This document shows, piece after piece, positions 2,255 through 23,436 of a stretch of 23,436 bases of DNA; the first letter of the stretch is position 1, and each line of letters opens with the position of its first letter. Below the pieces are notes generated by a model, which saw nothing but the letters and a program-made list of their open reading frames with translations, had not been told where the DNA came from and did no database searches. The stretch lies in IMG/VR virus record IMGVR_UViG_3300031566_007875, positions 1 to 23,436 of that record; one strand, 5' to 3'. A program made the position numbers and the translations under genes. This DNA comes from a virus.

Positions 2255-2286
2255 AGGCGAACAATAAAACAAAAAATTCTAATAAT

Positions 2287-4393: not shown

Positions 4394-4705
4394 ATGGTAC
4401 TTGAACAAACAAGACCTTGTCAAAAATTTTTCTGTTATGATTGTCAGAAAGAAATAAAAGTAGAAAGAAAAGAAATTAAAAACGGAGTATTCCTGGCATA
4501 TAAAAATGGAGAAGAGAAAATCAACATTTTAAAATGCCAGGAATGTTTTGACAAATCAAAAGAATTAAGAAATTATCAGGCCTGTGAAGTTTATTCACGA
4601 GTAGTTGGATATCTAAGACCCGTCAGACAGTGGAATCTGGGAAAACAGAAAGAATTCAAAGACAGAAAAAATTATAAGATTAATTTTATGAAAAAAAGAA
4701 AATAG
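4394..4705 (+). CDS. zinc-ribbon protein with NrdD-type glycyl-radical C-terminus
   Basis: A 103-residue protein. CYDC (14-17) and CQEC (48-51) form two CxxC knuckles of a zinc ribbon. Residues 64-94 (CEVYSRVVGYLRPV, then WNLGKQKEFKDRKNY) match the extreme C-terminus of class III anaerobic ribonucleotide reductase (NrdD), where RVxGY holds the radical glycine, here Gly72. In NrdD the same order, four zinc cysteines and then the glycine loop, ends a protein of roughly 600-700 residues; here the catalytic barrel is missing. It may be a detached radical domain working with an NrdD encoded elsewhere, a spare radical subunit like GrcA/YfiD for pyruvate formate-lyase, or a remnant of a split gene. 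Intact motifs argue against decay. A terminator follows. Confidence 0.7.
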   Translation: MVLEQTRPCQKFFCYDCQKEIKVERKEIKNGVFLAYKNGEEKINILKCQECFDKSKELRNYQACEVYSRVVGYLRPVRQWNLGKQKEFKDRKNYKINFMKKRK

Positions 4706-7046: not shown

Positions 7047-7094
7047 ATCTGAAGTAAAGATAAAAGACATTGAATTATACCAAACGGTCGACAT

Positions 7095-7123
7095 TTTACT
7101 ATTCGAAAAAAAATTAGTATAAT
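7095..7123 (+). promoter_or_regulatory. promoter giving a near-leaderless protease/scaffold mRNA
   Basis: TTTACT at 7095-7100, a 17-base spacer and TATAAT at 7118-7123. The expected start at about 7130 is only 2-4 bases before the ATG at 7133, so the transcript would be almost leaderless. Confidence 0.65.
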
Positions 7124-7132
7124 AAAAACAAT

Positions 7133-9453: not shown

Positions 9454-9861
9454 ATGACTGCTTTATCTGCTAACTACGAAGCAAAACGACAAGATGGAAT
9501 AATCCTTTCATACCCAGTTTTAGCTGCTTCTACGATTTATAAAGGTGCTCTTCTAGTTGATGTCGGTACAGGATTTGCTCAGCCTGGTTCAGGTGTCGGC
9601 GCTTACACTTTCTTAGGTGTGGCTGCTGAAGCTGCAACAGGTGGCACTTCTGATGGCGATGTGAGAGTACGTGTTTATAAGTCAGGTGTTTTCCAATACG
9701 CTAAAGCTTCAGCTGTTGATAGTGATCTTGGTGTTAAGATGTATCTTCATGATGACCAAACTGTCGGAACAAGTTCGACAAATACTAATTTCTGTGGTTA
9801 TTGTGTTGACATCGTTGACGGATCAACTATTAAGCTTCAAATCGACGCAGCAGTTAATTAA
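9454..9861 (+). CDS. head decoration/stabilisation protein
   Basis: A 135-residue, Gly/Ala/Thr/Val-rich, beta-strand protein. The order YPV...IYKGALL, GAYTFLGVAAEA, VRVRVYKSGVF, GVKMYLHDDQTV, GYCVDIVDGSTIKLQID follows the pattern of DUF2190-type capsid cement proteins, in which a 'kGdlv' strand, a 'fvGvA' strand and a 'G.f' strand are conserved. It lies between protease/scaffold and major capsid protein, the normal place for decoration proteins. It should trimerise on the expanded shell. More G and C are used here than in the surrounding genes, as in the capsid gene, fitting high expression. No signal peptide; starts without a Shine-Dalgarno sequence after an A-rich tract. Confidence 0.75.
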   Translation: MTALSANYEAKRQDGIILSYPVLAASTIYKGALLVDVGTGFAQPGSGVGAYTFLGVAAEAATGGTSDGDVRVRVYKSGVFQYAKASAVDSDLGVKMYLHDDQTVGTSSTNTNFCGYCVDIVDGSTIKLQIDAAVN

Positions 9862-9873
9862 TAACATACAAAA

Positions 9874-10821
9874 ATGCTTACAAAAGGTGATATTCCTAAG
9901 TTATTATTAGCTGGCATGAAGACTAACTTCATGAGCGCCTACGAAGTGGCTGTGAAAGATTACATGAAGATTGCTACCACTATAGTTTCAGGAAAGAGTT
10001 CTGAAACTTATCCTTGGTTAGGTTCTGTTCCCAAAATGCAAGAATGGAGAGACGAAAGAATTCCTCAAGCGATGCTTGAACACAACTTTACGATCGCAAA
10101 CCGTGACTTCGAAGCTTCTATCGCTGTAGATAGAAATGCAATCGAAGATGAACAATACGGTCAGATTGAAGTTCGTGTGAAAGAACTCGCAACTGAAGCT
10201 GTAAGATTTTTTGATGAATTGGCTTACACATTGATGGGGCAAGGTACTGCTTCAACTGGTACTGCTGGAACAATCTATGAAGGAGTAACTCTCAATTGCT
10301 ACGACGGTAATCCATTCTTTTATACATTGCATTCTGAAGGCGATTCTGGAACACTATCAAACCGTGGTTCAACTGCTCTTGGTGCGGGTGCACTACAAGC
10401 AGCTATCACGGCGATGAAGAAGTTTAAGAATGATAAGGGCAAACCTGCCCATGTCAGACCGAATCTTCTTGTTGTTCCTACCGATCTTGAATGGGAAGCA
10501 AAAGAACTTCTGAATTCTCAGTATTACCCAGAAGAAGGCACAACGACAAATAAGCTTGCGACAAACGTTTTGAAAGGATCTTTAGATCTTTTGGTAAACG
10601 ACTACTTGACAGATACCAATAACTGGTATTTGTTCGACACTAACAGAGTAGTTAAACCAATGATTCTTCAGTTACGTCAAGATCCTAAATTCTCAAGCTT
10701 AATATCTGGTACTGAATCTGCCTTTCTCCGCAAAAAACTATACTTTGGTGTAGATTGGAGAGGAGAAATTCTATGGGGAGACTGGAGAACAGGGTACGCT
10801 TCTATTGTAACTGGTGCTTAA
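9874..10821 (+). CDS. major capsid protein, Mu gpT-like
   Basis: A 315-residue protein that would build the icosahedral head. The segment 46-100 (YPWLGSVPKMQEWRDER, then TIANRDFEASIAVDRNAIED) is characteristic of the Mu gpT major head subunit: Trp-x-Gly, ...EW.geR..., 'nk.fe.ti.v.R..iEDd'. The C-terminal part (LRKKLYFGVDWRGEILWGDWR) fits the end of the family, where a Trp/Gly-rich strand closes the A-domain. Length is near that of gpT. It begins 12 bases after the decoration gene. Codon choice is less A/T-biased than in the glycan block, consistent with strong translation. A structured RNA follows the stop codon. Confidence 0.88.
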   Translation: MLTKGDIPKLLLAGMKTNFMSAYEVAVKDYMKIATTIVSGKSSETYPWLGSVPKMQEWRDERIPQAMLEHNFTIANRDFEASIAVDRNAIEDEQYGQIEVRVKELATEAVRFFDELAYTLMGQGTASTGTAGTIYEGVTLNCYDGNPFFYTLHSEGDSGTLSNRGSTALGAGALQAAITAMKKFKNDKGKPAHVRPNLLVVPTDLEWEAKELLNSQYYPEEGTTTNKLATNVLKGSLDLLVNDYLTDTNNWYLFDTNRVVKPMILQLRQDPKFSSLISGTESAFLRKKLYFGVDWRGEILWGDWRTGYASIVTGA

Positions 10822-10842
10822 TAGCTTGTAGTTAACTTAGAA

Positions 10843-10858
10843 CGGGGTATAAACCCCG
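10843..10858 (+). other. G/C-rich tetraloop hairpin after the capsid gene
   Basis: CGGGGT (10843-10848) and ACCCCG (10853-10858) enclose the loop ATAA. An outer pair AGTTAA/TTAACT brackets it. So many G-C pairs stand out in this genome. No T-run follows, so it is more likely a 3' stabiliser or processing element than an intrinsic terminator. Confidence 0.55.
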
Positions 10859-10890
10859 GGGAGTGTAATTAACTCTTTTACTCAATGAGG

Positions 10891-10962
10891 ATAATCCTTT
10901 AAATCTTGTTCGGACACAAACCTTTCCGGATGTGCCGGAACAAGTGGAAAGGAAGGGATTAT
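10891..10962 (+). ncRNA. candidate pseudoknot RNA before glycosyltransferase gene
   Basis: An outer helix pairs 10891-10897 with 10956-10962 perfectly. Inside, CTTGTTC-GG-CAC (10905-10917) pairs with 10932-10944 as 12 bp with two single bulges. Its 14-base loop contains CCTTTCC (10921-10927), which pairs perfectly with GGAAAGG (10946-10952) outside the hairpin, giving an H-type pseudoknot topology. A competing hairpin TTCCGG/CCGGAA (10924-10940) also exists. The right strands are purine-rich and end 14 bases before the ATG at 10976. A regulatory leader for that gene is the simplest reading. Confidence 0.5.
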
Positions 10963-10975
10963 ACTAAAAACATTT

Positions 10976-11653
10976 ATGTTGAAAAATACAAAATTAGCCA
11001 TTGGAATCCCGACAACTGGACAAGTTTCTTGGCAGTTTGCTAGTAGCCTGATGGCTTTGCAACTTTTGCCAGACACTCGTGTAATATGGATGGTCAAGAC
11101 GATGATAGATACTGCACGAAATAATCTTGTTCAGACAGCAATGAAAGATCTGAGTTATACTCATTTATTGATGATCGACGACGACATGACGTTTGAACCA
11201 GATTTTGCTCTAAAACTTTTAGAGCATGATGTAGATATAGTTGGGGGTTTAGCTTTCAAGAGAAGACCCGATTACCAACCATGTGTATATCGTCAAAATG
11301 AAAAAGACAAACAATACTATCCAATTTTACCCGATGTCTTTCAAGAAGTAGATGTCATTGGGACAGGCGGTATTCTGATAAAAATGGAAGTATTACGAAA
11401 AATGAAAAGTCCTTGGTTCTTTACAGATTATGATAAAGATGGAACTCATTGGAGTGTTGATTTTCGATTTTGTCAAGAAGCTAAAAAAGCTGAGTTTAAA
11501 ATATTCGTTGATCCAGATTCAAAAATGGGTCATATAGGAGAACCAGAATTAGTAACAATTGAAACTTTTTATAGAAATGTTAAAAAAATCAACGAAAGAA
11601 AAGTTCAGCTAGAAAATAAAAGAAAAGATCAGCTAGAAAATAAAAAAGGATAG
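10976..11653 (+). CDS. GT-A glycosyltransferase linked to capsid genes
   Basis: A 225-residue protein. It opens with LAIGIPTTGQVSW, and IDDDMTF (67-73) carries the DxD metal-binding site of a GT-A fold. GTGGILIKMEVLRKM (129-143) and DFRFCQEAKKAEFKIFVDP (162-180) match phage GT2-like enzymes in which 'GtGg.li....l' and '(E/D)D..fc..a...G..i..d' are conserved; Asp162 is a candidate catalytic base. It has no membrane anchor. It stands directly after the capsid gene and before a small beta-rich protein, which makes a virion protein a reasonable acceptor, though that is inference. The last 16 residues are a tandem duplication (QLENKRKD/QLENKKG), from a 24-bp DNA repeat. Confidence 0.75.
   Translation: MLKNTKLAIGIPTTGQVSWQFASSLMALQLLPDTRVIWMVKTMIDTARNNLVQTAMKDLSYTHLLMIDDDMTFEPDFALKLLEHDVDIVGGLAFKRRPDYQPCVYRQNEKDKQYYPILPDVFQEVDVIGTGGILIKMEVLRKMKSPWFFTDYDKDGTHWSVDFRFCQEAKKAEFKIFVDPDSKMGHIGEPELVTIETFYRNVKKINERKVQLENKRKDQLENKKG
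11597..11644 (+). repeat. 24-bp tandem duplication in gene 3' end
   Basis: Two adjacent 24-base units, 11597-11620 and 11621-11644, differ at one base (T/A in AGAAAAGTTC versus AGAAAAGATC). They add one extra 8-residue charged repeat to the C-terminus of the glycosyltransferase and look like recent slippage. Confidence 0.8.
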
Positions 11654-11660
11654 AGAAGAG

Positions 11661-11689
11661 TTTACATATGTTTCTAAATATGGTATGAT
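11661..11689 (+). promoter_or_regulatory. sigma70-like promoter
   Basis: TTTACA at 11661-11666, a 17-base spacer and TATGAT at 11684-11689, the only -10 of this set that departs from TATAAT. Transcription would start at about 11696, just before a 13-codon mini-frame at 11698-11739, and go on to the gene at 11754. Confidence 0.6.
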
Positions 11690-11753
11690 ATACTCAGATG
11701 CTTAAAAGTCGAAGAATTTTAAAAAAAGATTTTTTATAAATATATAAAACAAT

Positions 11754-12014
11754 ATGCAAGTAATCAAAATAACAGCAACTGGTCTAGCATTTACTGGACA
11801 TGCGTCAGTCGAGGGAATATCTCTTATACCAGATACAGCCGAATCAACGATCGTCCTTAATGATAGTTTGACTGGTTTGGGAGATGATAAGGGTGAAGTA
11901 AAAACACAAAAAGAGTATTCAAAAGAAGTTTCATTATATGGACAAATGTTTTCGACTGGTATATACGCGACTCTAACGGGTTCTGGGGCAGTTGCATATA
12001 TCTACGTTCGTTAG
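11754..12014 (+). CDS. small beta-rich, probably structural, protein
   Basis: An 86-residue protein made of alternating polar and hydrophobic stretches typical of a small beta-sandwich (ISLIPDTAESTIVLNDS, then EVSLYGQMFSTGIYATLTG, AVAYIYVR). The 'F.tGiyatltG.gavayiyv' ending resembles small head or tail decoration proteins of phages, but I cannot place it in a named family. It has its own promoter at 11661-11689. Between a capsid-linked glycosyltransferase and the glycan block, it could be a minor virion protein and perhaps the acceptor for glycosylation. That last point is a guess. Confidence 0.6.
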   Translation: MQVIKITATGLAFTGHASVEGISLIPDTAESTIVLNDSLTGLGDDKGEVKTQKEYSKEVSLYGQMFSTGIYATLTGSGAVAYIYVR

Positions 12015-12056: not shown

Positions 12057-13040
12057 ATGAAGAAATCTCTTAATATAGGAGTATTCAACCCATCATTAAT
12101 ATATCAAGCGTCTCCCTATTGCGGAGATCAAATTTTCGCAAAAGGTTTAGAACAGAATGGTTACGATGTTGTTCGATTTGATTATCGCGCGACGAACGAT
12201 CCGAACGATGATCTTATTAGATTAGCAATGTCGATGAAGCAGAAACCAGAGATAGTTTGGTTTGGTAAAGCTGAAAGAATACTACCTCTTACATTAAATA
12301 TTTTGCGCCAGGTTTTTCCTGACGCAGTTTTTGTTAAGTGGGCAGCAGATATAAGAAATGAACCTACTGTGCATGATATTAAACATAATGAATATGTCGA
12401 TTGGTTTTTTGGTACATTCGGTGGAGATTATCTAAAAAAACATCTGCTTCCAACTATGAAAGGTGTTGGTTCAATAATCGCTTTTACTGATTCTTCTTTC
12501 TATCGACATATCGATGAAGTAGATATACAAGAAGAATGGAAAACGGATATAGTTTGGACTGGAAGACGTTCTGTTGGAAACAACATACTCAGAAATCAAA
12601 CTATAGATAGACTTTTAAAATACAATAATTCAAAAGTGCATGGTTTAACAAATTGGTTAGGTAATCCTGATTATCTGTATGCTATAAATGGTGCTAAGAT
12701 AGGCATTGGTGTTAATAGTTATGATCATACTATCAAGTCGTCTTCAGATAGACTTGGAAATTATATGGCATGTGGTACTTTTTATTTATGTCATGATTTT
12801 GGAAATATCGACGAAATTTTTAAGAGGGGTTATCATTTAGATTGGTTTCAAGACATCGAAGAAATGGAAGAGAAAATAGACTATTATCTAAAACATGACG
12901 ACGAAAGAAAACAAATCGCAAAAAATGGACAGGAATTTGTTTTGAAATATTTCGATACTAAACCATTAGTCCAGAATCTTCTAAATATTATCAAACATGG
13001 AGAAAGTAAGTATGCTTGGGATGATGTCTACCTTAACTAA
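12057..13040 (+). CDS. CgeB-like GT-B glycosyltransferase
   Basis: A 327-residue protein. The N-terminal half (LNIGVFNPS, then NGYDVVRFDYR, PEIVWFGKAE, DAVFVKWAADIRNE) has the alternating beta-alpha pattern of a GT-B N-domain. The C-terminal half carries the CgeB/'Glyco_trans_1_2' block: SDRLGNYMACGTFYLCHDF (230-248), LDWFQDIEEMEEKIDYYL (261-278) and DDERKQIAKNGQEFV (281-295), which binds the sugar nucleotide. It opens the glycan block 42 bases after the small beta protein. Substrate cannot be predicted. Its 3' end overlaps the next small gene. Confidence 0.8.
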   Translation: MKKSLNIGVFNPSLIYQASPYCGDQIFAKGLEQNGYDVVRFDYRATNDPNDDLIRLAMSMKQKPEIVWFGKAERILPLTLNILRQVFPDAVFVKWAADIRNEPTVHDIKHNEYVDWFFGTFGGDYLKKHLLPTMKGVGSIIAFTDSSFYRHIDEVDIQEEWKTDIVWTGRRSVGNNILRNQTIDRLLKYNNSKVHGLTNWLGNPDYLYAINGAKIGIGVNSYDHTIKSSSDRLGNYMACGTFYLCHDFGNIDEIFKRGYHLDWFQDIEEMEEKIDYYLKHDDERKQIAKNGQEFVLKYFDTKPLVQNLLNIIKHGESKYAWDDVYLN

Positions 13041-13332
13041 ACTACAATTAGAAATAGATAAGAAAAATGAAGAGTTTACTGAAAAACTTCTGAGAGGAGA
13101 AGTAACTCTCATTGATCTGACTCCTTTTCAAACGTCTGATTATATAGAATGCAAAGGCCAGTATATTGAAATTATTGGAGGTTGTGAAAGATTAGCTTTT
13201 GTTAGATGTCCGAAATGTAGAGAATATATAAGTGTATACAAAGACGAAATCAGTTCTGATGGACGAACAGAAATGAAAAGATGTCTTTGTGGTTTTAAGA
13301 AATCTTTAATATTAAAAAAATGGAAAAAATAA
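12997..13332 (+). CDS. small zinc-ribbon protein
   Basis: Up to 111 residues from the first ATG at 12997. Later in-frame ATGs at 13012, 13021 or 13024 would reduce the overlap with the preceding glycosyltransferase gene, and I cannot decide between them; a GGAG at 12999-13002 slightly favours 13012. CPKC (71-74) and CLCG (96-99) form a likely zinc ribbon. The N-terminal part is a charged helix. No family is recognised. It overlaps the following glycosyltransferase gene by 13 bases, so the three genes are translationally coupled. Confidence 0.65.
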   Translation: MEKVSMLGMMSTLTKLQLEIDKKNEEFTEKLLRGEVTLIDLTPFQTSDYIECKGQYIEIIGGCERLAFVRCPKCREYISVYKDEISSDGRTEMKRCLCGFKKSLILKKWKK

Positions 13333-14060
13333 CGACAATTTTACAGGTTTATAAAAGACCTGGATATTTACAAGAACAACTCGAAGCAGTTGCGAATCAG
13401 ACTATCAAATCAGATAAGATCATTATTGTTCATAATGAAGGAGACATAGATTTTAACTATCCAAATAATGTTCAATTGGTTTATGCAAATCCGAATTTAA
13501 AATTTCACTTGAGATATGCAGTTGGTTTGCTAGCAGACACTGAATATCTTTCTTTTTTTGATGACGATAGTATACCACAACCGAGATGGACAGAGAACTG
13601 TATTAACACTATTGCAAAACACGACTGTATATGTGTCACAAATGGCAGAATTGTAGACAGGAAAAATAAAAGACAATACGGACCAGGCTGGAGCAACCCA
13701 TCTGACACTGAAATTGAAGTCGATTTTGGTGGTCATGCTCTTTTTTTGAGAAAGAAAAATCTTAAATATATGTTTTATGATGATATTATCGAATATAATA
13801 ATGGAGAAGACATACAACTTAGTGCAAATGCACAAATTTTTGGAAAAATACCAACATTTGTACCACCTCACCCGAAATCGAACAGAGAACTTTGGGGTTC
13901 TGATCCAGAAAAAGCAATGAAATATGGTTGTGACTCTGTTTCTTCGTGGATAGTTAACAAAACACATAATCAAGAACGTTTTAAACTCTTCGATGAGTAT
14001 GTTAAGAGGGGCTGGAAGCTAATTCTTGAGAATACTACTCACAGAATAACGATTATTTAG
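13320..14060 (+). CDS. family 2-like GT-A glycosyltransferase
   Basis: A 246-residue protein beginning ITTILQVYKRPGYLQEQLEAV, the usual GT2 opening, followed by QTIKSDKIIIVHNEG. FFDDDSIPQPRW (79-90) contains the metal-binding acidic triad, and YNNGEDIQLSANAQIFG (159-175) is the catalytic-acid region ('gEDi.ls'). The position of the DGG-like stretch VDFGGHALFLRK (134-145) also fits. It overlaps the zinc-ribbon gene by 13 bases. A gap of 133 bases with a stem-loop follows. Confidence 0.82.
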   Translation: MEKITTILQVYKRPGYLQEQLEAVANQTIKSDKIIIVHNEGDIDFNYPNNVQLVYANPNLKFHLRYAVGLLADTEYLSFFDDDSIPQPRWTENCINTIAKHDCICVTNGRIVDRKNKRQYGPGWSNPSDTEIEVDFGGHALFLRKKNLKYMFYDDIIEYNNGEDIQLSANAQIFGKIPTFVPPHPKSNRELWGSDPEKAMKYGCDSVSSWIVNKTHNQERFKLFDEYVKRGWKLILENTTHRITII

Positions 14061-14117
14061 AGGAATACATGTATAAAAAGGTATATTATATTAGATTTTA
14101 GCAAAAAATGTCTTAGA

Positions 14118-14155
14118 AGTCATTCTAGAGTGATAAGAAATGATCTAAAATGACT
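14118..14155 (+). other. stem-loop before the radical SAM gene
   Basis: AGTCATTCTAGA (14118-14129) pairs with TCTAAAATGACT (14144-14155) at 11 of 12 positions around a 14-base loop. TGACT (14151-14155) can alternatively pair with AGTCA at 14163-14167. No T-run follows. It sits in the only sizeable gap (14061-14193) of the glycan block. Confidence 0.5.
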
Positions 14156-14193
14156 ATTATACAGTCAAAAATAGTATAAAGTATCAAAAAAGT

Positions 14194-15357
14194 ATGTATA
14201 TTGAAGAATCTAATAAAAAATATGAAAAAAGACAAAAAAATAAAGAAAATAGACCCAATGTTTATCAATATTTTGAACAACTTGAAAAACATCTAGGAGG
14301 TGATTTAAAAAAGATATTTAATGGAAAGATAGTTTATCCCAGACAGTTAGAATTGCATCTTCCAACTGATCATAAAAAACCCTGCGTCTTTAATTGTTTC
14401 TATTGTGCTGGCAAACGTTTTCAAAAAGACTTAGGCGATTTTGAAATGAATGCTTTAGAATTGTTAAGAAAATTAGATGGTCGTATACCTTATGTTATCT
14501 ATGGTGGAAGTTATACAGAACCACTGCTAAATCCGTATTTTATGGCTTTTTTAGCAATGACAAAAAAGACGGGCAGTCATTTTGGTATTCATACGAATGG
14601 TTCTATGCTTAAGCGTTTAGAGGAAACTCAAGGTTGGCTTACTGTGCTATCTGAAATTGCAGAAGATAAAGTAGATTATCTTTCGATAAGTTTAGATGCT
14701 GGTTCGACTGAAAGTCATTGCAAAATAAAAGGTGTAAAACATGATTGGTATAGCGAAATTATAGAAGGAATAAAAATGGCAGTAAAAGCATCAAAGGGTA
14801 AGAAAGGACCAGCAGTAAGAGTCTGTTATTTATTAAATGAATTTAATTCTTCAGAAAAAGAGATAGCAAACATCGTAAAAACAATGAAAGATATTGGAGT
14901 TGATTCTTTACGGTTTTCAATTCCCTTTGCGCCCTATGCACAAGACTTTGATGTAGTTAGACAATATAAACAGAATGTAGAAGACAAAAACGACTATTCG
15001 TATTATAAAAAAGTGGAACCATATTTATCTAAAAGTCAGAATGAGAAACCATTCATTTTTTATATCTCACCAGAATTTCAAAACATAGAGCTTTTCAATT
15101 TTAAACAATGCATTTATGGGTATTATCAAATATGCTGGGGAGCAGATGGATATGTTTATCGTTGCACTACTATTTCTACTCCTACTTTTAAAGAACTCCG
15201 ACTTGGAAAGATAACAGATGATTTAGAAAAGTTTAATCAGATGATATTAAAGAATCAAGATCCAACTTTTAATTGTAATAAATGTTTTTCTATAAAAGGT
15301 AGGTGCAATAGAATGGGATTAGAAATAAATAAAAAATGGAAAGAATTAAATGAATAA
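14194..15357 (+). CDS. radical SAM enzyme with SPASM-like C-terminus
   Basis: A 387-residue protein. CVFNCFYC (64-71) is the CxxxCxxC motif that binds the [4Fe-4S] cluster used to cleave S-adenosylmethionine. GGSYTEPLL (104-112) corresponds to the 'GGEP' motif, HTNGS (133-137) to the next strand, and YLSISLDAG (162-170) to the SAM-contacting strand. Six C-terminal cysteines (306, 314, 324, 361, 364, 371) are arranged like a SPASM or twitch domain that holds auxiliary clusters. Set among sugar genes, it may oxidise, epimerise or otherwise alter a sugar or its nucleotide carrier; peptide modification is the main alternative. It ends 3 bases before a methyltransferase gene. Confidence 0.82.
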   Translation: MYIEESNKKYEKRQKNKENRPNVYQYFEQLEKHLGGDLKKIFNGKIVYPRQLELHLPTDHKKPCVFNCFYCAGKRFQKDLGDFEMNALELLRKLDGRIPYVIYGGSYTEPLLNPYFMAFLAMTKKTGSHFGIHTNGSMLKRLEETQGWLTVLSEIAEDKVDYLSISLDAGSTESHCKIKGVKHDWYSEIIEGIKMAVKASKGKKGPAVRVCYLLNEFNSSEKEIANIVKTMKDIGVDSLRFSIPFAPYAQDFDVVRQYKQNVEDKNDYSYYKKVEPYLSKSQNEKPFIFYISPEFQNIELFNFKQCIYGYYQICWGADGYVYRCTTISTPTFKELRLGKITDDLEKFNQMILKNQDPTFNCNKCFSIKGRCNRMGLEINKKWKELNE

Positions 15358-15360
15358 AAA

Positions 15361-15933
15361 ATGAATTATTCTTCATCAGATTTTGTAGACAAGATGCTCA
15401 TATCTAACCCTAATCGTTATTGTGACAAATGGACAGTTGATAGAAATAAAGAAATACTTAATTTTGTAAAAGATATTAAATTCAATAATATTTTTGAATT
15501 TGCTGGAGGTACTGGAACATTGGCTAAAATGTTTTTAATCTCACACGCAGAGATCGAATCGTATATTTTTAGTGATTTCAGCCCAATAGCTTGTAAATTA
15601 GCAAAAGAATACTTAAAAGAATTTGATAATATCAGAGTGAATCTCTATGATATGACTAAAGATTTGGATAATATTCTCTGGAAGAATTTTGATTTAATCG
15701 TATGCACTTCTATGGAGCATTTTCCAAAAGATCTCGATCTCAAAATTCTAAAACATGTTCAGAAAGGCACTTATATATTATTTGGAATGTCAACTTTTCG
15801 GGAATGCACACACCAGCATGTTTATCCAAATATCGAATATGTCATCGTTCGTTTCAAAGATATTATCGATATAGAAAATATATCTTATAGTAATAAAAAA
15901 CGTCAAATATTATTATATGGCAAATCAATCTAA
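15361..15933 (+). CDS. class I SAM-dependent methyltransferase
   Basis: A 190-residue protein. IFEFAGGTGTLAKMF (44-58) is motif I for SAM binding, SDFSP (71-75) provides the acidic residue at the end of strand 2, and DLIVCTSMEHFPKD (111-124) is the strand-4 region. The short length suggests a bare Rossmann-like catalytic domain. It follows the radical SAM gene by 3 bases and may act on the same substrate. The acceptor is unknown. Confidence 0.75.
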   Translation: MNYSSSDFVDKMLISNPNRYCDKWTVDRNKEILNFVKDIKFNNIFEFAGGTGTLAKMFLISHAEIESYIFSDFSPIACKLAKEYLKEFDNIRVNLYDMTKDLDNILWKNFDLIVCTSMEHFPKDLDLKILKHVQKGTYILFGMSTFRECTHQHVYPNIEYVIVRFKDIIDIENISYSNKKRQILLYGKSI

Positions 15934-15936
15934 AAT

Positions 15937-16896
15937 ATGAATGGTCTAATACTAATACCAGATACTTATGCTCATATTTACAATTCTATAGGTCGGTATT
16001 TGAATTTTTTTGAATTATTGAAGAATAGGCTGGGTTTTAAGATACTGTTATGTCAAGATTGCAAAATCGATTCACCCGAAATACAGAAAGCAGATGTCGT
16101 AATAGTTTTTAAAAGTCCAGAAAAAGGACGTTTGTCTTTGATGGAAAGCATGAGTAAGTTGCCAAAATCAAAGAAATTGATTGTATACTTTACAGATCTG
16201 CATGGTGGTAGTAGTGATACAGGAAATCCTAAATCTAATATTCCATTTAGAAATAAGATGATAAAAATGTTGGATCGAGCTGATAAGATTCTGTGCCCAT
16301 ATGATTACTTTTTCAGAAAACATTGGTCACAATATGAAGACAAATATGAATTTTTCCCTCAATTTATTACGCCTTTAAGATATTTCAATAGTTTGAAAAT
16401 AAATGATAAACCGATTATGAAGTGTCTTTTGACGGGTGCTCTTTATCCACCCTATTATCCATTGAGAATTTTAATAGATCAACAAAAAAGTCAATATGTA
16501 GAGACATTAGTACATCCAGGATATGCTGCTAGAGAAGGCACAGAGATAAAGGTTGGAGAAGACTATGTCAAAGAATTACATAAATATTTTTGCGGAGTAG
16601 CGACACCTAGTATTTTAGATTATATCGTAGCAAAATATTTCGAAATTCCAGCTACTGGTTCTTTATTATTAGCAAAACACTCTCCCGATTTAGATAAAAT
16701 TGGGTTTATAGAAAATAAACATTACATCAAAATAGATAAAGATAATTTTTTTACAATATTAAGTGACGTTTTAGAAAATCCCAGAAAATATAAAAACGTC
16801 AGAGAAGAAGGTAGAAAATTTGTCTTTGAAAATCATACTGACGAGAATAGGTTTAATCAATTAAAACAAATCATAGAAGAATTATGTATAACATAG
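15937..16896 (+). CDS. GT-B glycosyltransferase, CgeB-like
   Basis: A 319-residue protein. Two Rossmann-like halves are visible: LILIPDTYAHIYNSIGRY near the start, ADVVIVFKSPEKG and KLIVYFTDLHGG in the N-domain, and MKCLLTGALYPPYYPLR (161-177) followed by SILDYIVAKYFEIPATGSLL (225-244), GFIENKHYIKID and a closing helix (REEGRKFVFENHT) in the C-domain. The C-terminal block is the sugar-nucleotide site of CgeB-type enzymes, where '..k.fEipa.G.lll' is typical. The last 13 bases overlap the oxidoreductase gene. Confidence 0.75.
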   Translation: MNGLILIPDTYAHIYNSIGRYLNFFELLKNRLGFKILLCQDCKIDSPEIQKADVVIVFKSPEKGRLSLMESMSKLPKSKKLIVYFTDLHGGSSDTGNPKSNIPFRNKMIKMLDRADKILCPYDYFFRKHWSQYEDKYEFFPQFITPLRYFNSLKINDKPIMKCLLTGALYPPYYPLRILIDQQKSQYVETLVHPGYAAREGTEIKVGEDYVKELHKYFCGVATPSILDYIVAKYFEIPATGSLLLAKHSPDLDKIGFIENKHYIKIDKDNFFTILSDVLENPRKYKNVREEGRKFVFENHTDENRFNQLKQIIEELCIT

Positions 16897-17765
16897 CTTT
16901 GATCGGAGTTGGATATTGGGGTTCTAAATTAAAAAAATATATTGAGAACAACTCAAATTTTAATTTGAAATATGTATGTGATGTTAATTCTGACTTAAAC
17001 GAAGTTTGGAATGATAAAAATATAACTGCTGTTGTAGTAGCAACGCCTAATGCAACTCATTATGAAATCGTTAAATCAGCTTTATTGAGTGGAAAGAATG
17101 TTTTGTCAGAAAAACCATTGGCGTTAAAAACTAAAGAATGCAAAGATCTTAAAAAGATTGCTTCTGATAAAAACTTAGTGATTTTGACAGAATATACGTA
17201 TACTTTTTCTAAAGCATTAAATAAAGCAAAAGAATTAGTTGAAAAAGGCGAAATTGGGCAAATATTGGGAATAGAAATGGCAGTGAGACATCTTGGAAGA
17301 TTTGGTGGAGGAAGTGTTTATTGGCTTTTGGGTTCACATATGTTGTCTGTTTTGGATATGTTTATCTCGTTAGAAAAACTTTCTTTTAAAAAGACAGATT
17401 TAGTCGTTTCTGATGGCCAGGTTGAAACAGGTGTTATCTCTTTTGATGGTGAGATATCAGGTCAGATTTTTCTTAGTCTTAATTATCCAGAAAAGGAAAC
17501 ACGGATAACGATATATGGTGAGAACGGAACAATTGTGTACATTCCATCTTCTTTATTATCTTTGTATGTTGAAAAATACAAAAAACTGAAATGGTCTACT
17601 GAGTTGCCACGTGAGCGTGCAGAGTTTCATATCGATGAGAAAAATAATTTGAAATATGCAATTGAACGTTTTTATAATGTTTTAGAGAGACTGAATGAAG
17701 ACAATATTGATAGAGCAATATCGATAACTAAAATACTTGAAAATATTAATAAAAAATGGATATAA
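16884..17765 (+). CDS. Gfo/Idh/MocA-type NAD(P)-dependent sugar oxidoreductase
   Basis: A 293-residue protein. IALIGVGYWGSK (4-15) is the dinucleotide-binding GxGxxG loop, VVVATPNATHYEIVKSAL (50-67) and VLSEKPLA (73-80, with the family's EKP motif) follow in order, and GSHMLSVLDMF (150-160) supplies the active-site histidine region. Relatives include WlbA-like UDP-sugar 3-dehydrogenases and inositol dehydrogenases, so oxidation at a ring carbon of a nucleotide sugar is the best guess. It is slightly shorter than many relatives (about 320-360 residues). It overlaps its neighbours on both sides (13 and 10 bases). Confidence 0.85.
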   Translation: MYNIALIGVGYWGSKLKKYIENNSNFNLKYVCDVNSDLNEVWNDKNITAVVVATPNATHYEIVKSALLSGKNVLSEKPLALKTKECKDLKKIASDKNLVILTEYTYTFSKALNKAKELVEKGEIGQILGIEMAVRHLGRFGGGSVYWLLGSHMLSVLDMFISLEKLSFKKTDLVVSDGQVETGVISFDGEISGQIFLSLNYPEKETRITIYGENGTIVYIPSSLLSLYVEKYKKLKWSTELPRERAEFHIDEKNNLKYAIERFYNVLERLNEDNIDRAISITKILENINKKWI

Positions 17766-18466
17766 AAGATTTTGCAACTTTAACAGTATCATATAACGAT
17801 GAAAAACACATAGGCGGGATGCTTAAAGGCGTTGAAGATTTGCATAATCTAGTTATCATCAGCAAACCGTGGAGAGGGGAACATATAAGATTTGATAAAT
17901 CAAGAGAAATTGCTGAACGAATGAATGCTGAAGTCATCTATCAAGATTTTGTAAGCGAAAAGGACGAAAGAAATTTTGGAATGGAATATTTGGAAAAGAG
18001 CGGTTTTAAGCATATTTTTATTATAGACACTGATGAATATTATAAAAAAGAAGATATTTACAAAATGATGAAATATGTTGAAGAACATCCGTCTGATTCT
18101 TGCAGAAATAATAATGACAAAGTCTATTGGAAGTCTTGGAAACATCATTTTCAACATCGTTCATGTATTAGTTATATGAAAGCAAGTAGTAGATTTTCTG
18201 GAAAAAGAACTCCAAAAGAAAAAACCACTCATGGTTTTCCAGCAGAAATCGAAATGCATCATTTTACTTTTGAAAGAACTGAAGAGGAAATGTTAGAAAA
18301 AGCAGAAACACGAGAGTATTTAGTGCTGACTAAAACGTGGATAGAAAAATATTGGAAAAATTGGCAACCCGGAGAAAATTATAAAGATTTTAAAATTATA
18401 CGGACAGTAAATATACCAGAAGAGATTTTAGGAAGATATATTAAATCAATTAATTTGTTGTATTAA
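17756..18466 (+). CDS. GT-A glycosyltransferase (GT2-like)
   Basis: A 236-residue protein. ATLTVSYNDEKHIGGML (7-23) is the usual opening of a GT-A domain, the region 64-84 (DFVSEKDERNFGMEYLE) resembles the 'qa.aRN.g.' segment, and IIDTDEYYKK (89-98) carries the DxD metal-binding motif. The C-terminal half is rich in His, Lys and Trp and lacks a membrane segment. Donor and acceptor are unknown. It overlaps the oxidoreductase gene by 10 bases and ends 1 base before the next start codon. Confidence 0.75.
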   Translation: MDIKDFATLTVSYNDEKHIGGMLKGVEDLHNLVIISKPWRGEHIRFDKSREIAERMNAEVIYQDFVSEKDERNFGMEYLEKSGFKHIFIIDTDEYYKKEDIYKMMKYVEEHPSDSCRNNNDKVYWKSWKHHFQHRSCISYMKASSRFSGKRTPKEKTTHGFPAEIEMHHFTFERTEEEMLEKAETREYLVLTKTWIEKYWKNWQPGENYKDFKIIRTVNIPEEILGRYIKSINLLY

Positions 18467-18467
18467 G

Positions 18468-19460
18468 ATGAATAGACATATTTATTCGGGTGAATATCAA
18501 GATATAGAAATAAACGGCGAACTTTTGATAAAAGGAAAACGAAGTTGTTCAGATCGTTGGGAAATACTCAAAAAACATATTAAACCAAACTCAACTGTCA
18601 TTGACATTGGTTCGTATCATGGTTATTTCGGAATAAAAATAGCTAGAGAAATTGAAAATACGATGATATTATCTATTGAATCAAATCCGACGTGGGTAAC
18701 GGAACAAGCTCAAATAGTCGAATCAAACAATCTGTCTAATATTGTTGTTAGTAAACATCATTTTTCTCTAGATGATTTAAAATGGTTAGATAATGTTGTC
18801 GAAGGCATAGATTATTTTATGATGTTTTCAGTTTTGGAATATTTTCCAGTATGTTCAATCGAAGAAATCATAAAACATATTAGTAGAATAAGTCCAAAAT
18901 TTATTGTAGAATTTCCAAACAAAGAAGAAACTAAAGCAGCAGGATATGGTGCGATCCAGAAATTTTCTCCTTTTATAGAATATTTAAAAAAATATTTTGA
19001 AAATGTACAAATTATAGGTAAAGCTATTGCTACGACTGACCATAGTATGACTCGCAACATTTATCTTGCTGAAAATAAATATCTAGAACGACACGGTTTG
19101 AAAAGTAGTAAAGATCATTTTAAAAGCCGAGACCACAAATTGATTTATAAAGACGACAAATGGGTAATGAAAGAAGTTGATATTCAAAATAGAGAATGGA
19201 TTACTGGTTTTAACCTTCATAATCTTTTGAAATTTAATATTATATACCCGAAACAACAGTGGTTTTTAGATAACGCGCGTATAAAATATCAAGAAATATT
19301 TGATAAATATAAGGAAATTTCTGATATTTCATTAAAGAATATTTTGTATACTTCTAAAGGATTAGAAATAATTGATTATCTAGAAGTTAAAAATATCAAA
19401 ACACAAGATGCTTTCGACGAGCATTTTAAAAAATTTGTTGTTAATTCAATAAGAACATGA
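18468..19460 (+). CDS. methyltransferase with extra C-terminal domain
   Basis: A 330-residue protein. VIDIGSYHGYFGIKIAR (44-60) is motif I of a class I methyltransferase, LSIESNP (68-74) carries the acidic residue binding the SAM ribose, and FMMFSVLEYFP fits strand 4. The fold should end near residue 200. A further 130 residues (from about 205) contain aromatic and basic segments of unknown role; in related proteins such tails recognise a sugar or lipid-linked acceptor. It ends with TGA, overlapping the next start codon by 4 bases. Confidence 0.72.
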   Translation: MNRHIYSGEYQDIEINGELLIKGKRSCSDRWEILKKHIKPNSTVIDIGSYHGYFGIKIAREIENTMILSIESNPTWVTEQAQIVESNNLSNIVVSKHHFSLDDLKWLDNVVEGIDYFMMFSVLEYFPVCSIEEIIKHISRISPKFIVEFPNKEETKAAGYGAIQKFSPFIEYLKKYFENVQIIGKAIATTDHSMTRNIYLAENKYLERHGLKSSKDHFKSRDHKLIYKDDKWVMKEVDIQNREWITGFNLHNLLKFNIIYPKQQWFLDNARIKYQEIFDKYKEISDISLKNILYTSKGLEIIDYLEVKNIKTQDAFDEHFKKFVVNSIRT

Positions 19461-20116
19461 TCACTCTTGCTAAACTTAAACATTTAAAAGATAAGAAGTT
19501 TCAACGATTGCATAAAGAAGTTGCCGAATATCATACAAAAGTTGTTTATATGTATGATTGGTCACGCCAGTGGGAATACCCTTGGGTTTTGCAAAACGTG
19601 CCTTTCAAGAAAAAAGATATAGTATTAGATGCGGGTGGCGGAACATGTCATTTTCCTTCTTTAGTAGCAAGACGAGTGGAAAAAGTTATTGTTGGAGATA
19701 TATATCGAGAAAGAATTTTTAAACCAGAAGCTAGCAACGTTGAATTTTTAACTTTGAACGTGTTGAATTTCAAGACTGATAAGAAATATGATATAGTTTT
19801 GTGTCTTAGTGTTTTAGAACATGTTGATAATTACTTCGAAGCAATAAAAAATCTGACAGAGTCTGTTAAAAAAGACGGTTATCTAGTAATAACGTTAGAT
19901 TTATTTTTAGATGACTTCAAAAATTGTAAAAAGAAAGATATTCCCAAAATATTAGAATTATTTAAAGATTTTGATCTTGGAAAAGTTGATTTATCTGAAG
20001 ATGATTTATATCAAAAGACGACTTTGCAAGAAATGAAATTAGATTTGCCAAATCTTTATAGTCGAAATTATAAAAATAGAACTTCATTAGGAATTATTAT
20101 TAAAAAACATGAATAA
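19457..20116 (+). CDS. class I SAM-dependent methyltransferase
   Basis: A 219-residue protein. DIVLDAGGGTCHFPSLVA (54-71) is motif I, VIVGDIYRE (78-86) holds the acidic residue of strand 2, and DIVLCLSVLEHVDNYFEAI (112-130) is the strand-4 region typical of methyltransferase 11/12-type enzymes. The N-terminal helices (1-50) are aromatic and basic. Start and stop overlap the genes on both sides, so it belongs to one operon. Target not predictable; a sugar hydroxyl is the natural guess from context. Confidence 0.78.
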   Translation: MITLAKLKHLKDKKFQRLHKEVAEYHTKVVYMYDWSRQWEYPWVLQNVPFKKKDIVLDAGGGTCHFPSLVARRVEKVIVGDIYRERIFKPEASNVEFLTLNVLNFKTDKKYDIVLCLSVLEHVDNYFEAIKNLTESVKKDGYLVITLDLFLDDFKNCKKKDIPKILELFKDFDLGKVDLSEDDLYQKTTLQEMKLDLPNLYSRNYKNRTSLGIIIKKHE

Positions 20117-20678
20117 AAAGATAATAGTAATATCATACGATGATTTATGGGAAGGAAATGATAAATGGGTTGTTTTTGAAAAATTCTACGCAAAATTTCC
20201 AAAGTATAAAGTTACTTTTTTTGTAAATCCCGGTCAGTGTTCTCCAGAATTTTTGAAAAAAATTAAAAAACCGTGGACAGAATTAGTTTATCATGCAGAA
20301 AATCATACGGGTAGTCACATGAAATGGTCAAAAGAAGAATCTAAAGAAAAATTATTGAAATATTATGACAAACATGGCTTCGTTAAGGGTTTTAAAGGGC
20401 CTGGTTGGAGACTTTCACAAAATATTATTGACGCATGTAAAGAATTAGGATTCTGGATTGCTTCTATTTCGACTATACCTGTAGAGATTGACAAAAAATT
20501 TTATACTTATTATAAAAAAGGAGAAGGTTTAAGTCATTTACCGAATTATTCACAATATTATGGTCATATACAAAGTCATAATTTTAATGAAAATTTAAAA
20601 GAACTTGAAGAACATTGTAATGAATGTGATCCAGAGTTTAGATTTGTTTCTGAAATGCTAAATATACCTTTAAGATGA
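20109..20678 (+). CDS. NodB-like polysaccharide deacetylase
   Basis: A 189-residue protein. IVISYDDLWEG (6-16) has the paired Asp of motif 1 (catalytic base and metal ligand), YHAENHTGSHMKWS (61-74) has the HxxxH-type metal-binding histidines of motif 2, and FKGPGWRLSQNIIDACKELGF (95-115) is motif 3 leading into the usual 'a...lGy' helix. It should remove an N- or O-acetyl group from a sugar. Without a signal peptide it would act in the cytoplasm, on a nucleotide sugar or a lipid-linked sugar. Shorter than most family members. It begins 8 bases inside the preceding methyltransferase gene. Confidence 0.72.
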   Translation: MNKKIIVISYDDLWEGNDKWVVFEKFYAKFPKYKVTFFVNPGQCSPEFLKKIKKPWTELVYHAENHTGSHMKWSKEESKEKLLKYYDKHGFVKGFKGPGWRLSQNIIDACKELGFWIASISTIPVEIDKKFYTYYKKGEGLSHLPNYSQYYGHIQSHNFNENLKELEEHCNECDPEFRFVSEMLNIPLR

Positions 20679-20682
20679 TAAA

Positions 20683-21429
20683 ATGAAAAACTTCATTCAT
20701 ATAATTTATAGTAATTTTATTAAAAAACCGACAAAATATGAACCTGATTTATTTTGGTCATATCGGTTGAAAATTTTTGAACATTATACTATTAAAAGTC
20801 TGATAGGTCAAACAAATAAAAATTTTTGTTTTTTAATGTATCTGACACATCATTTTCCTGATAAATATTATAATGAGCTAGAACGTATATTAAAAGAGTC
20901 TAGAATTAACTATTTTATATCATATCTAGAGAAAAAAGATGAAAAGAAAGATATGTTTAAGGGAATAGAAAAAACGAAATATGTATATGTTACTCGTATA
21001 GATTCAGATGATTTATTTCATAAAGAAGTCGTAGAAGAAATACAACAACATGATTTTAGTTGGCGTCGTGCATTGATATACCAGTATGGTTATTGTTTTG
21101 ACTGTGTCAATAAACGAATGAGATATCATTATGTACCCTGCCCACCTTTTTCAACTATAATATATCCAACTGAGATTTATATAGACAAAGATCCGTCTAG
21201 AATTTCAAAATATGTAAATACTATCTCTGGACATGATCAATTATTACGAAGTATGAATTCATTGCCTCTTTCAAAATATAAATATATCGTTCTTTGTCAT
21301 AAAATGAATGATTCTACTTATTATACAGAAAGGAAAGAAGAACATCTTAAAACAATCGATAAAAAGTTGCATAATAATATATTACTAGATTTTAACATAA
21401 GTACGAAGACATATGAAAAAATTGTATGA
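20683..21429 (+). CDS. glycosyltransferase of the rhamnosyltransferase-like type
   Basis: A 248-residue protein. LFWSYRLKIFEHYTIKSL (23-40) followed by QTNKNFCFLMYLT (43-55) resembles the 'R...f..yTl.Sl..Qt...f....' start of putative rhamnosyltransferases, and VTRIDSDDLFHKE (103-115) is the acidic metal-binding motif. The late SGHDQLLRS segment would carry the catalytic region. Four bases separate it from the deacetylase gene, and its 3' end overlaps the fused methyltransferase-glycosyltransferase gene by 17 bases. Confidence 0.68.
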   Translation: MKNFIHIIYSNFIKKPTKYEPDLFWSYRLKIFEHYTIKSLIGQTNKNFCFLMYLTHHFPDKYYNELERILKESRINYFISYLEKKDEKKDMFKGIEKTKYVYVTRIDSDDLFHKEVVEEIQQHDFSWRRALIYQYGYCFDCVNKRMRYHYVPCPPFSTIIYPTEIYIDKDPSRISKYVNTISGHDQLLRSMNSLPLSKYKYIVLCHKMNDSTYYTERKEEHLKTIDKKLHNNILLDFNISTKTYEKIV

Positions 21430-22765
21430 TAAAAATATTAATACGTCTGAATATTGGGAAAAATATAAAGGTCTAAAGTATCAATCAGATGTTAGAAAAA
21501 CTGGAGAATTACGATATCTAGAAGTTTTAAAATATATCAATAAAGATTCAAGAATTCTTGATATAGGTTGTAATTTTGGAGACTTTTTGAAATATATGAC
21601 AGAAAATAAAGTCAAATTTGCCGATTATAGCGGTCTCGATTTTTCGATACCAGCAATTGAACGTGCAAAAAAAGAATTTTCTGAACGAGAGTGGATTCTT
21701 GGAGACTGTCAGACGATAGAAATTGAAAAAGACAAATACAATGTTATACTTACTATGCAAATGTTAGAACACATAGACAATCCAGAAGAGATTTTAAAGA
21801 AAGTTTTTAATATTTTGAAAGAAAATGGTAAGATAATTATAACAGTACCGAATGAAACAAGAATACGACACGAATCACATTTTTGGTCTTTTGATAAAGA
21901 AGATTTAAAAAAGATGCTTTACTCTGCTGGTTTTAGAAATATCGAAACTAGAGAGGTCAACGAAAAAAAGAATCTTTTAGCAGTAGCAACAAAATTACGA
22001 AAAATAACTGTAGTTACGCCCGTTTTATGTCCAAGCGAGAATGTATTTAAGACGATCAAAGTTTGTTTCGAATCGATACGAAAAGCGGTTGATAAAGTGA
22101 ATGGTGAGTGGATTATTATCGATGACAATTCAGAGATTGGGAAAGAGTTTTTCTCAGAAATTGGAAACGTTTATATAAGAAATAACAAAACAATAGGAGT
22201 GTCGTCTTCTTTAAATAAAGGAATGAAAATTAGTTCGGGTTCGTTTTTGGTAAAATTAGATTCTGATTATCTTGTTCCAGAAAATCTTTTTGAAGTTCTT
22301 CTTAAAGATTGGACAGACGATCTTGCTTTTATTTCTCCATCTTTTATGTTCGGTCGGCCGAATGATAAAAAACATTATGATGTCGCTAATATACCAATTC
22401 CAGAAGGGGGTGTTTTTGATAAACCTTCTGGTATGAACAGAAGTTCTATATATCAATGGGGTGGTGGCATCTTAATGTTTGACAGTAAAAAACTAAAAGA
22501 AATAGATTATTTTGATGAAGATTTCGATATAGGCAGTGCTCAAGATAACGACGTTATTTATAGAATATTAATGAAAGGACATAGTTGGCGTTGGTCAAAT
22601 AATGTCTTGACTAGACATTTTGCATCTATCTCTTCGACAGATCCGAATGCGCCAGACTCTCGTGGAGAACGAAGAAGAATTGGAAAAGAAATTTTTATTA
22701 AGAAAAATGGTTTTGCTCCAGGCGGTTTTATAAGTAAAGTTATGAGTCATTTTAAATATGAATAA
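21413..22765 (+). CDS. methyltransferase-glycosyltransferase fusion
   Basis: A 450-residue protein with two domains. Residues 1-195 are a class I methyltransferase: RILDIGCNFGDFLKY (47-61), GLDFS (74-78), and ILTMQMLEHIDNPEEIL (112-128) with a C-terminal FWSFDKEDLKKML helix. Residues 198-450 are a GT2-like GT-A domain: ITVVTPVLCPSE, GEWIIIDDNS (231-240), TIGVSSSLNKG (260-270) and VKLDSDYLVPE (280-290) with the DxD, then DIGSAQDNDVIYRIL with the acidic acceptor-site region. The joint near residue 190 is in frame, with no stop or shift. A fusion suggests transfer and methylation of the same sugar, for example as a chain-capping step. Confidence 0.8.
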   Translation: MKKLYDKNINTSEYWEKYKGLKYQSDVRKTGELRYLEVLKYINKDSRILDIGCNFGDFLKYMTENKVKFADYSGLDFSIPAIERAKKEFSEREWILGDCQTIEIEKDKYNVILTMQMLEHIDNPEEILKKVFNILKENGKIIITVPNETRIRHESHFWSFDKEDLKKMLYSAGFRNIETREVNEKKNLLAVATKLRKITVVTPVLCPSENVFKTIKVCFESIRKAVDKVNGEWIIIDDNSEIGKEFFSEIGNVYIRNNKTIGVSSSLNKGMKISSGSFLVKLDSDYLVPENLFEVLLKDWTDDLAFISPSFMFGRPNDKKHYDVANIPIPEGGVFDKPSGMNRSSIYQWGGGILMFDSKKLKEIDYFDEDFDIGSAQDNDVIYRILMKGHSWRWSNNVLTRHFASISSTDPNAPDSRGERRRIGKEIFIKKNGFAPGGFISKVMSHFKYE

Positions 22766-23436
22766 TAAAAATAAAAAAGAATGTTTTATACTAGGGACGC
22801 GACCGACAATTATTAAATTCGCACCTATTATAAAAAAGATGGATGCATTTGTCATACACACTGGTCAACATAAGGAATTAGCAGACGAGATGTATAAGAT
22901 TTTCGATATCGTACCAGATATAGATTTAGAACTAATGACAGAAAATCAATCTTTGCCAGAGCTTACTTCAAGATGTATAACTGCATTAGATAAAGTTTTT
23001 AAAGAAAATCAGTTTGATAGAATCTGGGTTCATGGTGATACTGCTTCATGTATGGCTGGTGCTTTAGTAGCATACATGAACAGAATTCCTCTCGTTCATA
23101 ATGAAGCTGGTTTGCGATCGTATGATAAGAATAATCCTTTTCCAGAAGAGATGTTTAGAACAATTATTGATAGTCTTTCTGATATCATGTTTGCTCCAAC
23201 TATTAGAGCCGTCGAAAATCTTAAAAAAGAAAATGTAAAGGGAAAAGTATATTTGGTTGGAAATACTATTGTCGACGCTTTGACAATGATTAAACCAAGA
23301 CTTCCAAAAGAAAGACCGATCAAAGAAAAGTATATTTTAGCAACTGTCCATAGACGAGAAAGCTTTGGTACAGATATACTTAATATTTTTGAAGCTCTAA
23401 AAGAAATCTCGAAAACTACTAGACTTATTTTACCAG
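22758..23436 (+). CDS. wecB: UDP-N-acetylglucosamine 2-epimerase (partial)
   Basis: An open frame of 226 codons from ATG 22758, cut by the right edge. ILGTRPTIIKFAPI (11-24), HTGQH (34-38), VHGDTASC (91-98), NEAGLRS (115-121), NPFPEEMFR (126-134), LVGNTIVDAL (166-175) and ATVHRRESFG (195-204) are the conserved blocks of the non-hydrolysing epimerase that converts UDP-GlcNAc to UDP-ManNAc. The family usually has about 370-390 residues, so roughly 60% is here. It is the only gene in the block whose substrate can be named with some confidence. It overlaps the preceding gene by 8 bases. HRRES replaces the common HR(R)EN. Confidence 0.88.
   Translation, partial: MNNKNKKECFILGTRPTIIKFAPIIKKMDAFVIHTGQHKELADEMYKIFDIVPDIDLELMTENQSLPELTSRCITALDKVFKENQFDRIWVHGDTASCMAGALVAYMNRIPLVHNEAGLRSYDKNNPFPEEMFRTIIDSLSDIMFAPTIRAVENLKKENVKGKVYLVGNTIVDALTMIKPRLPKERPIKEKYILATVHRRESFGTDILNIFEALKEISKTTRLILP

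Follow-up and report, generated by a model that had tools for sequence, protein, structure and literature searches.

The analysed window is the complete IMG/VR record IMGVR_UViG_3300031566_007875, a linear viral contig of 23,436 bases. It contains a long run of sugar-related genes, here called the island, which starts at 10976, directly behind a Mu-type head module, and ends in a UDP-GlcNAc 2-epimerase gene cut by the end of the contig. The head module (portal, protease/scaffold, cement protein and gpT) makes up the left and middle part of the window. Phage capsids are usually regarded as bare protein, and firm cases of virion glycans made by the phage itself are few. Gene calls were made by family profile scans (Pfam, TIGRFAM and PHROG), where weak denotes a match below the curated cut-off. 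The last two head genes and the island, including its glycosyltransferases (GTs) and one small open reading frame (ORF) product without a known family, are as follows:

9454-9861, + strand: capsid cement (decoration) protein, candidate glycan acceptor (PF09956 1.5e-5; phrog_1731 2e-19; Ser or Ser-Pro tails in relatives)
9874-10821, + strand: major head protein gpT, Mu type (PF10124 1e-59)
10976-11653, + strand: core GT-A glycosyltransferase directly behind gpT (phrog_1574 9e-20; in 14/14 relatives)
11754-12014, + strand: 86-aa protein with an all-beta jelly-roll fold; probable virion surface protein, candidate acceptor (AlphaFold2 pLDDT 96; viral fold matches TM 0.87-0.90; kept in 12 contigs)
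12057-13040, + strand: core GT-B glycosyltransferase (PF13524 3e-21; conserved in relatives)
12997-13332, + strand: small Cys-rich (zinc-ribbon-like) protein, without known family (orthologues in relatives)
13320-14060, + strand: family 2 GT (PF00535 1e-8)
14194-15357, + strand: radical SAM enzyme, probably with a SPASM domain (PF04055 1e-12; CX3CX2C; TIGR04085 0.005, weak)
15361-15933, + strand: methyltransferase (PF08242 1e-7; TIGR04371 3e-7)
15937-16896, + strand: GT (PF13524 5e-7)
16884-17765, + strand: Gfo/Idh/MocA oxidoreductase (PF01408 1e-18; PDB relatives)
17756-18466, + strand: probable family 2 GT (PF00535 5e-4, below cut-off; orthologues in G001 and G002)
18468-19460, + strand: methyltransferase-like protein with an extra C-terminal domain of unknown fold (weak matches; G001 orthologue 60%)
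19457-20116, + strand: methyltransferase (PF13489 1e-11)
20109-20678, + strand: NodB-like protein, possible deacetylase (PF01522 0.015; D-H-H pattern in three phages)
20683-21429, + strand: putative rhamnosyltransferase-family GT (PF11316 5e-14)
21413-22765, + strand: methyltransferase fused to a family 2 GT (PF13489 2e-22 and PF00535 2e-12)
22758-23436, + strand: UDP-GlcNAc 2-epimerase, WecB type, cut by the contig end (PF02350 2e-58; TIGR00236; full-length relatives)

The run of sugar genes behind the head module, noticed in a preliminary description of the window made from the letters alone, was borne out by the family scans. Its start had been placed at 12057, whereas the run opens earlier, with the phrog_1574 GT at 10976-11653, and another GT (phrog_842) lies further upstream at 2287-3102. 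The stretch from 10976 onwards holds seven GT domains (10976, 12057, 13320, 15937, 17756, 20683 and the C-terminal half of 21413) and four methyltransferase domains (15361, 18468, 19457 and the N-terminal half of 21413). One radical SAM enzyme, one Gfo/Idh/MocA enzyme, one NodB-like protein, one UDP-GlcNAc 2-epimerase and one Cys-rich small ORF complete the island. The earlier counts of five or more GTs and of three free methyltransferases plus a fused one were confirmed, with the matches at 17756 (GT) and 18468 (methyltransferase) being weak. That starts overlap stops throughout was slightly overstated; from 12057, overlaps occur at 8 of 13 junctions, with gaps of 1-4 bases at four and of 133 bases at one.

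The epimerase passes the WecB cut-off despite being cut (TIGR00236, 222 bits versus 210), and a full-length relative aligns with 5enz and 1o6c and retains the motifs GTRP..IK, HGDT, NEAGLRS, PFPEE, HRRE and DSGG. This identification and that of the Gfo/Idh/MocA dehydrogenase at 16884 (PF01408 1e-18) agree with what had been proposed. For the proposed radical SAM/SPASM enzyme, the radical SAM part stood (1e-12) and the SPASM part matched weakly (TIGR04085 0.005). The proposed deacetylase at 20109 scores 15.7 bits against PF01522, where the Pfam cut-off for NodB/CE4 is 23.1, while the NodB-type metal-binding D..H..H pattern is conserved in three phage copies. The suggestion of a ManNAc-derived, methylated, partly deacetylated glycan was a reasonable guess, in which only the UDP-ManNAc step has a strong family match and deacetylation has a weak one. 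The 17756 protein has a weak GT-A match, yet its acidic DxD-type motif is kept. All three weak calls (17756, 18468 and 20109) have at least one orthologue each among the relatives, and chance was ruled out by orthologues of 40-77% identity lying in the same order on independent contigs. Sequence searches of the PDB with the radical SAM protein and with the NodB-like alignment gave no match, nor did a search for close relatives of the 18468 protein in viral contigs. A WbdD-like kinase motif (DISLKN..IIDYL) at the C-terminus of 18468 is not claimed, the AlphaFold2 model from two sequences having a pLDDT of 51.

Relatives were found by searching viral contigs with gpT, the epimerase and the GT at 12057, and were compared by tblastn and all against all. 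The order gpT, GT(10976), 86-aa protein, GT(12057) and sugar genes was found in contigs from seven other IMG/VR datasets (metagenomes), and the first four of these genes were also present in L024, a contig binned with a Patescibacteria metagenome-assembled genome (MAG). In G011, the 86-aa gene is replaced by two extra GT copies and another protein. Three contigs (G004, G007 and G009) span the entire island into neck and tail genes; in G009, those after the island gave matches to the neck (phrog_26), tail-tube (PF18906) and tape-measure families, and orthologues of its neck and tube genes are present in G004 and G007. The stretch between gpT and the first large virion gene measures approximately 12 kb in G004, compared with 17-19 kb in G007, G009 and G010. 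The shared site within the structural module supports the earlier view that these are phage-encoded genes of the late region.

At the same site, the deeper relative L011 (gpT 52%) carries a methyltransferase gene and an HldE-type heptose-phosphate kinase and adenylyltransferase split into separate genes, and no recognisable sugar genes were seen among the ORFs inspected behind a remote gpT (35%) in a Planctomycetales MAG. The island site was thus probably occupied early in the lineage. The split adenylyltransferase and kinase pair of L011, here behind gpT in a phage, lies at 10734-12007.

Within this fixed site, part of the island is constant. Over 14 contigs, GT(10976) was present in 14, the 86-aa protein and GT(12057) in 12 each and the epimerase in seven, many contigs stopping before the epimerase. 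Pairwise identity tracks that of gpT for GT(10976), the 86-aa protein and GT(12057) (Spearman 0.68, 0.73 and 0.56, respectively) and does not for GT(13320) and the epimerase (0.19 and -0.09), which suggests that genes are exchanged inside the island. The 132 island proteins of eight contigs fell into 62 families, 34 of them confined to one contig. Among the other sugar genes of the relatives are SDR epimerase/dehydratases (G002 and G009), a nucleotide-sugar dehydrogenase (G009) and radical SAM enzymes (G007, G009 and G011). Judged from these comparisons, the island has a conserved framework that in part diverges along with the capsid gene, and the remainder turns over in the pattern of O-antigen and capsule loci.

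The genes for exporting a glycan were looked for in the same way. The priming glycosyl-phosphate transferase (PF02397), the flippase (PF01943) and the polymerase (PF04932) were each found in 0/10 contigs, while the same searches matched 10-13 of 14 control genomes. When 181 island proteins from nine contigs were scanned for hydropathy, none had more than one candidate membrane segment. The lack of a flippase, polymerase or lipid-carrier transferase, previously noted for the part from 12057 on, extends to relatives whose contigs continue into neck and tail genes. As far as the phage genes go, the chemistry is predicted to be cytoplasmic.

The likely acceptors of the glycan are virion proteins, namely the cement protein (9454), the jelly-roll protein (11754) and Ser-Pro-repeat proteins in relatives, for which there are four indirect lines of evidence. 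The first is that the island sits inside the structural (head-tail) module. The second is the 86-aa protein between the two core GTs, which gave a confident all-beta jelly-roll model (AlphaFold2 pLDDT 96). Its closest folds are small proteins of uncultured phages (TM 0.87-0.90), and its matches in the PDB are a generic jelly-roll set including a phage cement protein and a viral turret. Middling PDB matches to nucleoplasmins and carbohydrate-binding modules were read as a shared jelly-roll and nothing more. The protein is rich in Ser and Thr, which make up 20-28% of it in the contigs listed. It diverges more quickly than gpT (mean identity 39% versus 69%); from its model, it is a probable virion surface protein.

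The third line comes from distant relatives of GT(10976), which lie two genes behind the major capsid gene in three spring phages, within the structural module in vir323, and, in a Synechococcus phage, among tail-collar genes with a second GT and a nucleotide-sugar epimerase as neighbours. No homology was found between the 86-aa protein and small genes near the GT in vir323 and ctyzp037. The fourth line is the presence of Ser-rich C-terminal segments, of the kind expected of an acceptor, on the cement proteins of two relatives (L011 and G010), though not on that of the window. The L011 cement protein (8514-9005) carries a ten-Ser tail, and one of two copies of the cement protein in G010 (IMGVR_UViG_3300031227_000173, reverse complement 6578-7180) has an in-frame Ser-Pro repeat tail of approximately 55 residues. 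Ser-Pro repeats of this type also account for a large share of the big proteins found in G007, G009 and G010 at the island's right border. In mycobacteriophages, capsid and tail-tube subunits bear phage-made glycans at their C-termini, according to work cited in PMC12619734.

Taken together, we put a probability of roughly 60% on the island encoding a soluble cytoplasmic pathway by which virion proteins acquire, in late infection, an oligosaccharide that varies between lineages. The preliminary description had left a virion coat and a change of the host surface side by side; the present evidence leans to the virion. In the proposed pathway, the epimerase would supply UDP-ManNAc, and a core GT (10976 and/or 12057) would prime Ser or Thr of a virion surface protein. 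The chain would then be extended by the GTs at 13320, 15937, 17756, 20683 and 21413, with methyltransferases capping or tailoring the glycan, the NodB-like enzyme possibly removing N-acetyl groups, and the Gfo/Idh and radical SAM enzymes modifying the sugar or the acceptor. All steps would take place in the cytoplasm, before or during assembly.

A more specific proposal, which we hold tentatively, is that the island is a "serotype" locus by which a lineage of tailed phages varies its own virion. Here, conserved GTs and usually a UDP-ManNAc epimerase would frame an exchanged cassette at a fixed site between capsid and tail genes, and different glycans would be placed on capsid decoration proteins and Ser-Pro-rich fibres by phage enzymes alone in the cytoplasm.

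Several points weigh against a virion pathway. The alignment of the 86-aa protein contains no invariant Ser or Thr, and the cement protein of the window itself lacks the Ser tail seen in L011 and G010. G010 has no recognisable epimerase and its copy of GT(12057) is broken, so the framework is not an absolute requirement. Mixed roles are also possible for the island, and host export machinery could be used instead.

The last possibility is the basis of the strongest rival explanation, in which the enzymes feed the lipid-carrier and export machinery of the host, altering its O-antigen or capsule and blocking other phages, a role that has been proposed for sugar clusters in large cyanophages. The O-antigen-like gene mix and its turnover would fit, as would the heptose-activation genes at the same site in L011, and a jumbo-phage review reads similar clusters of GT, epimerase and kinase genes in this way (PMC7824862). 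However, the priming transferase, flippase and polymerase are absent from all contigs searched, and the window showed neither an integrase nor a prophage context. Late expression is expected from the position in the head-tail module, when superinfection exclusion would be of little benefit. We therefore consider modification of the host surface unlikely, if clearly worth keeping in mind.

It is less probable still that the product is a free or cell-attached sugar metabolite, or a modification of intracellular host proteins, unrelated to the virion or host surface. Radical SAM and Gfo/Idh enzymes are also found in secondary metabolism, but the several GTs per island and its conserved place between virion genes argue against such a role.

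Glycosylation of DNA, with the GTs decorating a modified base of the phage genome, is very improbable. It is brought to mind by the HMC-glucosyltransferase-like gene at 2287-3102, which adjoins ParB; this gene is, however, far from the island and missing in relatives with full islands. The thymidylate-synthase-type hydroxymethylase (PF00303) was found in 0/10 contigs, all of them fragments, while the controls matched; a Tet/JBP search (PF12851), in which no control matched, was uninformative. An epimerase, methyltransferases and a NodB-like enzyme within a virion module are also a poor fit.

Finally, an assembly chimera of a phage and a bacterial O-antigen locus, which the preliminary description named as one of two things that would overturn its reading and which is suggested by the resemblance of the genes to such loci and by the contig ending inside them, is refuted for practical purposes by the same gpT-sugar gene junction in independently assembled contigs (seven other IMG/VR datasets and one binned contig) and by the far end of the island joining tail genes in three contigs.

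Virion glycans made by phages, and clusters of sugar genes in phages, are already known; what sets the island apart is its fixed capsid-tail site, its length and its O-antigen-like turnover. The mycobacteriophages Che8, Rita and relatives also encode GTs (Freeman et al. 2023, cited in PMC12619734 and PMC11256854). In those phages, capsid and tail subunits receive covalently bound glycans within the host cell and no export is involved; here such attachment is a prediction. According to PMC11256854, the mycobacteriophages have a few GT genes near the genome end, in contrast to a head-tail island of 12-19 kb with an epimerase, tailoring enzymes and O-antigen-like turnover. Cyanophage and jumbo-phage polysaccharide clusters of the P-SSM2 type likewise combine GT, sugar-nucleotide and tailoring enzymes that vary among related phages; according to PMC7824862, they belong to very large phages and are read as O-antigen or capsule modification, whereas no export gene accompanies the Mu-headed structural module here. 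Bacterial Wzx/Wzy O-antigen and capsule loci share the conserved framework with an exchanged middle, as well as a WecB-type epimerase, GTs, methyltransferases and Gfo/Idh enzymes, but the island has no priming transferase, flippase or polymerase and is embedded between phage head and tail genes. The phrog_1574 GTs of vir323, ctyzp037, ctvy9321 and Synechococcus phage ACG-2014f belong to the GT(10976) family and are located shortly after the capsid gene or inside the structural module; they differ in being 27-29% identical or less and in having no long sugar island annotated behind them. Among GenBank phages (50,697 records), GT(12057) had no match and the best gpT matches were approximately 37% identical, with no close capsid relative. 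A literature search found no paper on such an island.

For the host, no Shine-Dalgarno motif was found at the starts of the 24 window genes, and in their leaders A is abundant and peaks at -3 and -6, with G strongly depleted. An A-rich leader without Shine-Dalgarno motif was also seen in G001-G004, G007, G009 and G010. This signature resembles that of Bacteroidota, in which, according to PMC6847099, the Shine-Dalgarno motif is absent and A at -3 is favourable. Full anaerobic ribonucleotide reductase (NrdD) genes are present in two relatives (G003 and G009), which suggests an anaerobic host. In the window, a 103-aa ORF at 4394-4705 (+) is a free-standing C-terminal glycyl-radical tail of this enzyme (RVVGYLRPVRQWNLGKQKEF; TIGR02487 positions 540-580 of 581, 1e-10), recalling GrcA/YfiD, the spare glycyl-radical part of pyruvate formate-lyase. 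A Patescibacteria host is not supported: gpT is 84% identical in one 4.7 kb MAG contig, but this is 1/380 genomes of the phylum, and the gene leaders of the MAG appear different from those of the phage. This contig was probably mis-binned.

The remaining features of the window lie to the left of the cement gene:

2287-3102, + strand: HMC-glucosyltransferase-like GT adjoining ParB (phrog_842 7e-20; absent from G003, G007, G009 and G010)
4944-6422, + strand: portal protein, Mu type, as context (PF06074 1e-23; phrog_113 1e-31)
7133-9427, + strand: head maturation protease/scaffold, as context (PF04586 4e-14; phrog_80)

The GT at 2287 probably has a function separate from the island, and a PDB sequence search with it gave no match. 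Together with a ParB-like gene it forms a pair (1385-3102, +) that is kept in G001, G002 and G004. Positions 1-1300, with approximately 15% GC, AT-rich tandem repeats and no credible gene, are a possible origin or regulatory region. An Rfam scan of the window gave no match and a tRNA search of it found none. In G007 (IMGVR_UViG_3300020171_000728, reverse complement 19443-21244), the gpT gene is broken by a homing-endonuclease-like ORF (19823-20527), possibly as an intron or intein. In most relatives, the GT behind the epimerase carries a fused short conserved domain with the pattern ITSPxNFSPDxxIEHGT...IPxWAKNN (G003 20940-22169; G009 34296-35579); this domain is free-standing in G007 (reverse complement 30370-30603).

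If the island does glycosylate the virion, the 12-19 kb of head-tail space that this uncultured lineage devotes to it would imply strong diversifying selection on virion glycans, similar to that on bacterial O-antigens. The purpose of the glycan, such as adhesion, evasion or receptor mimicry, would become testable, and the island would be a source of cytoplasmic protein-glycosylation enzymes that need no membrane partners.

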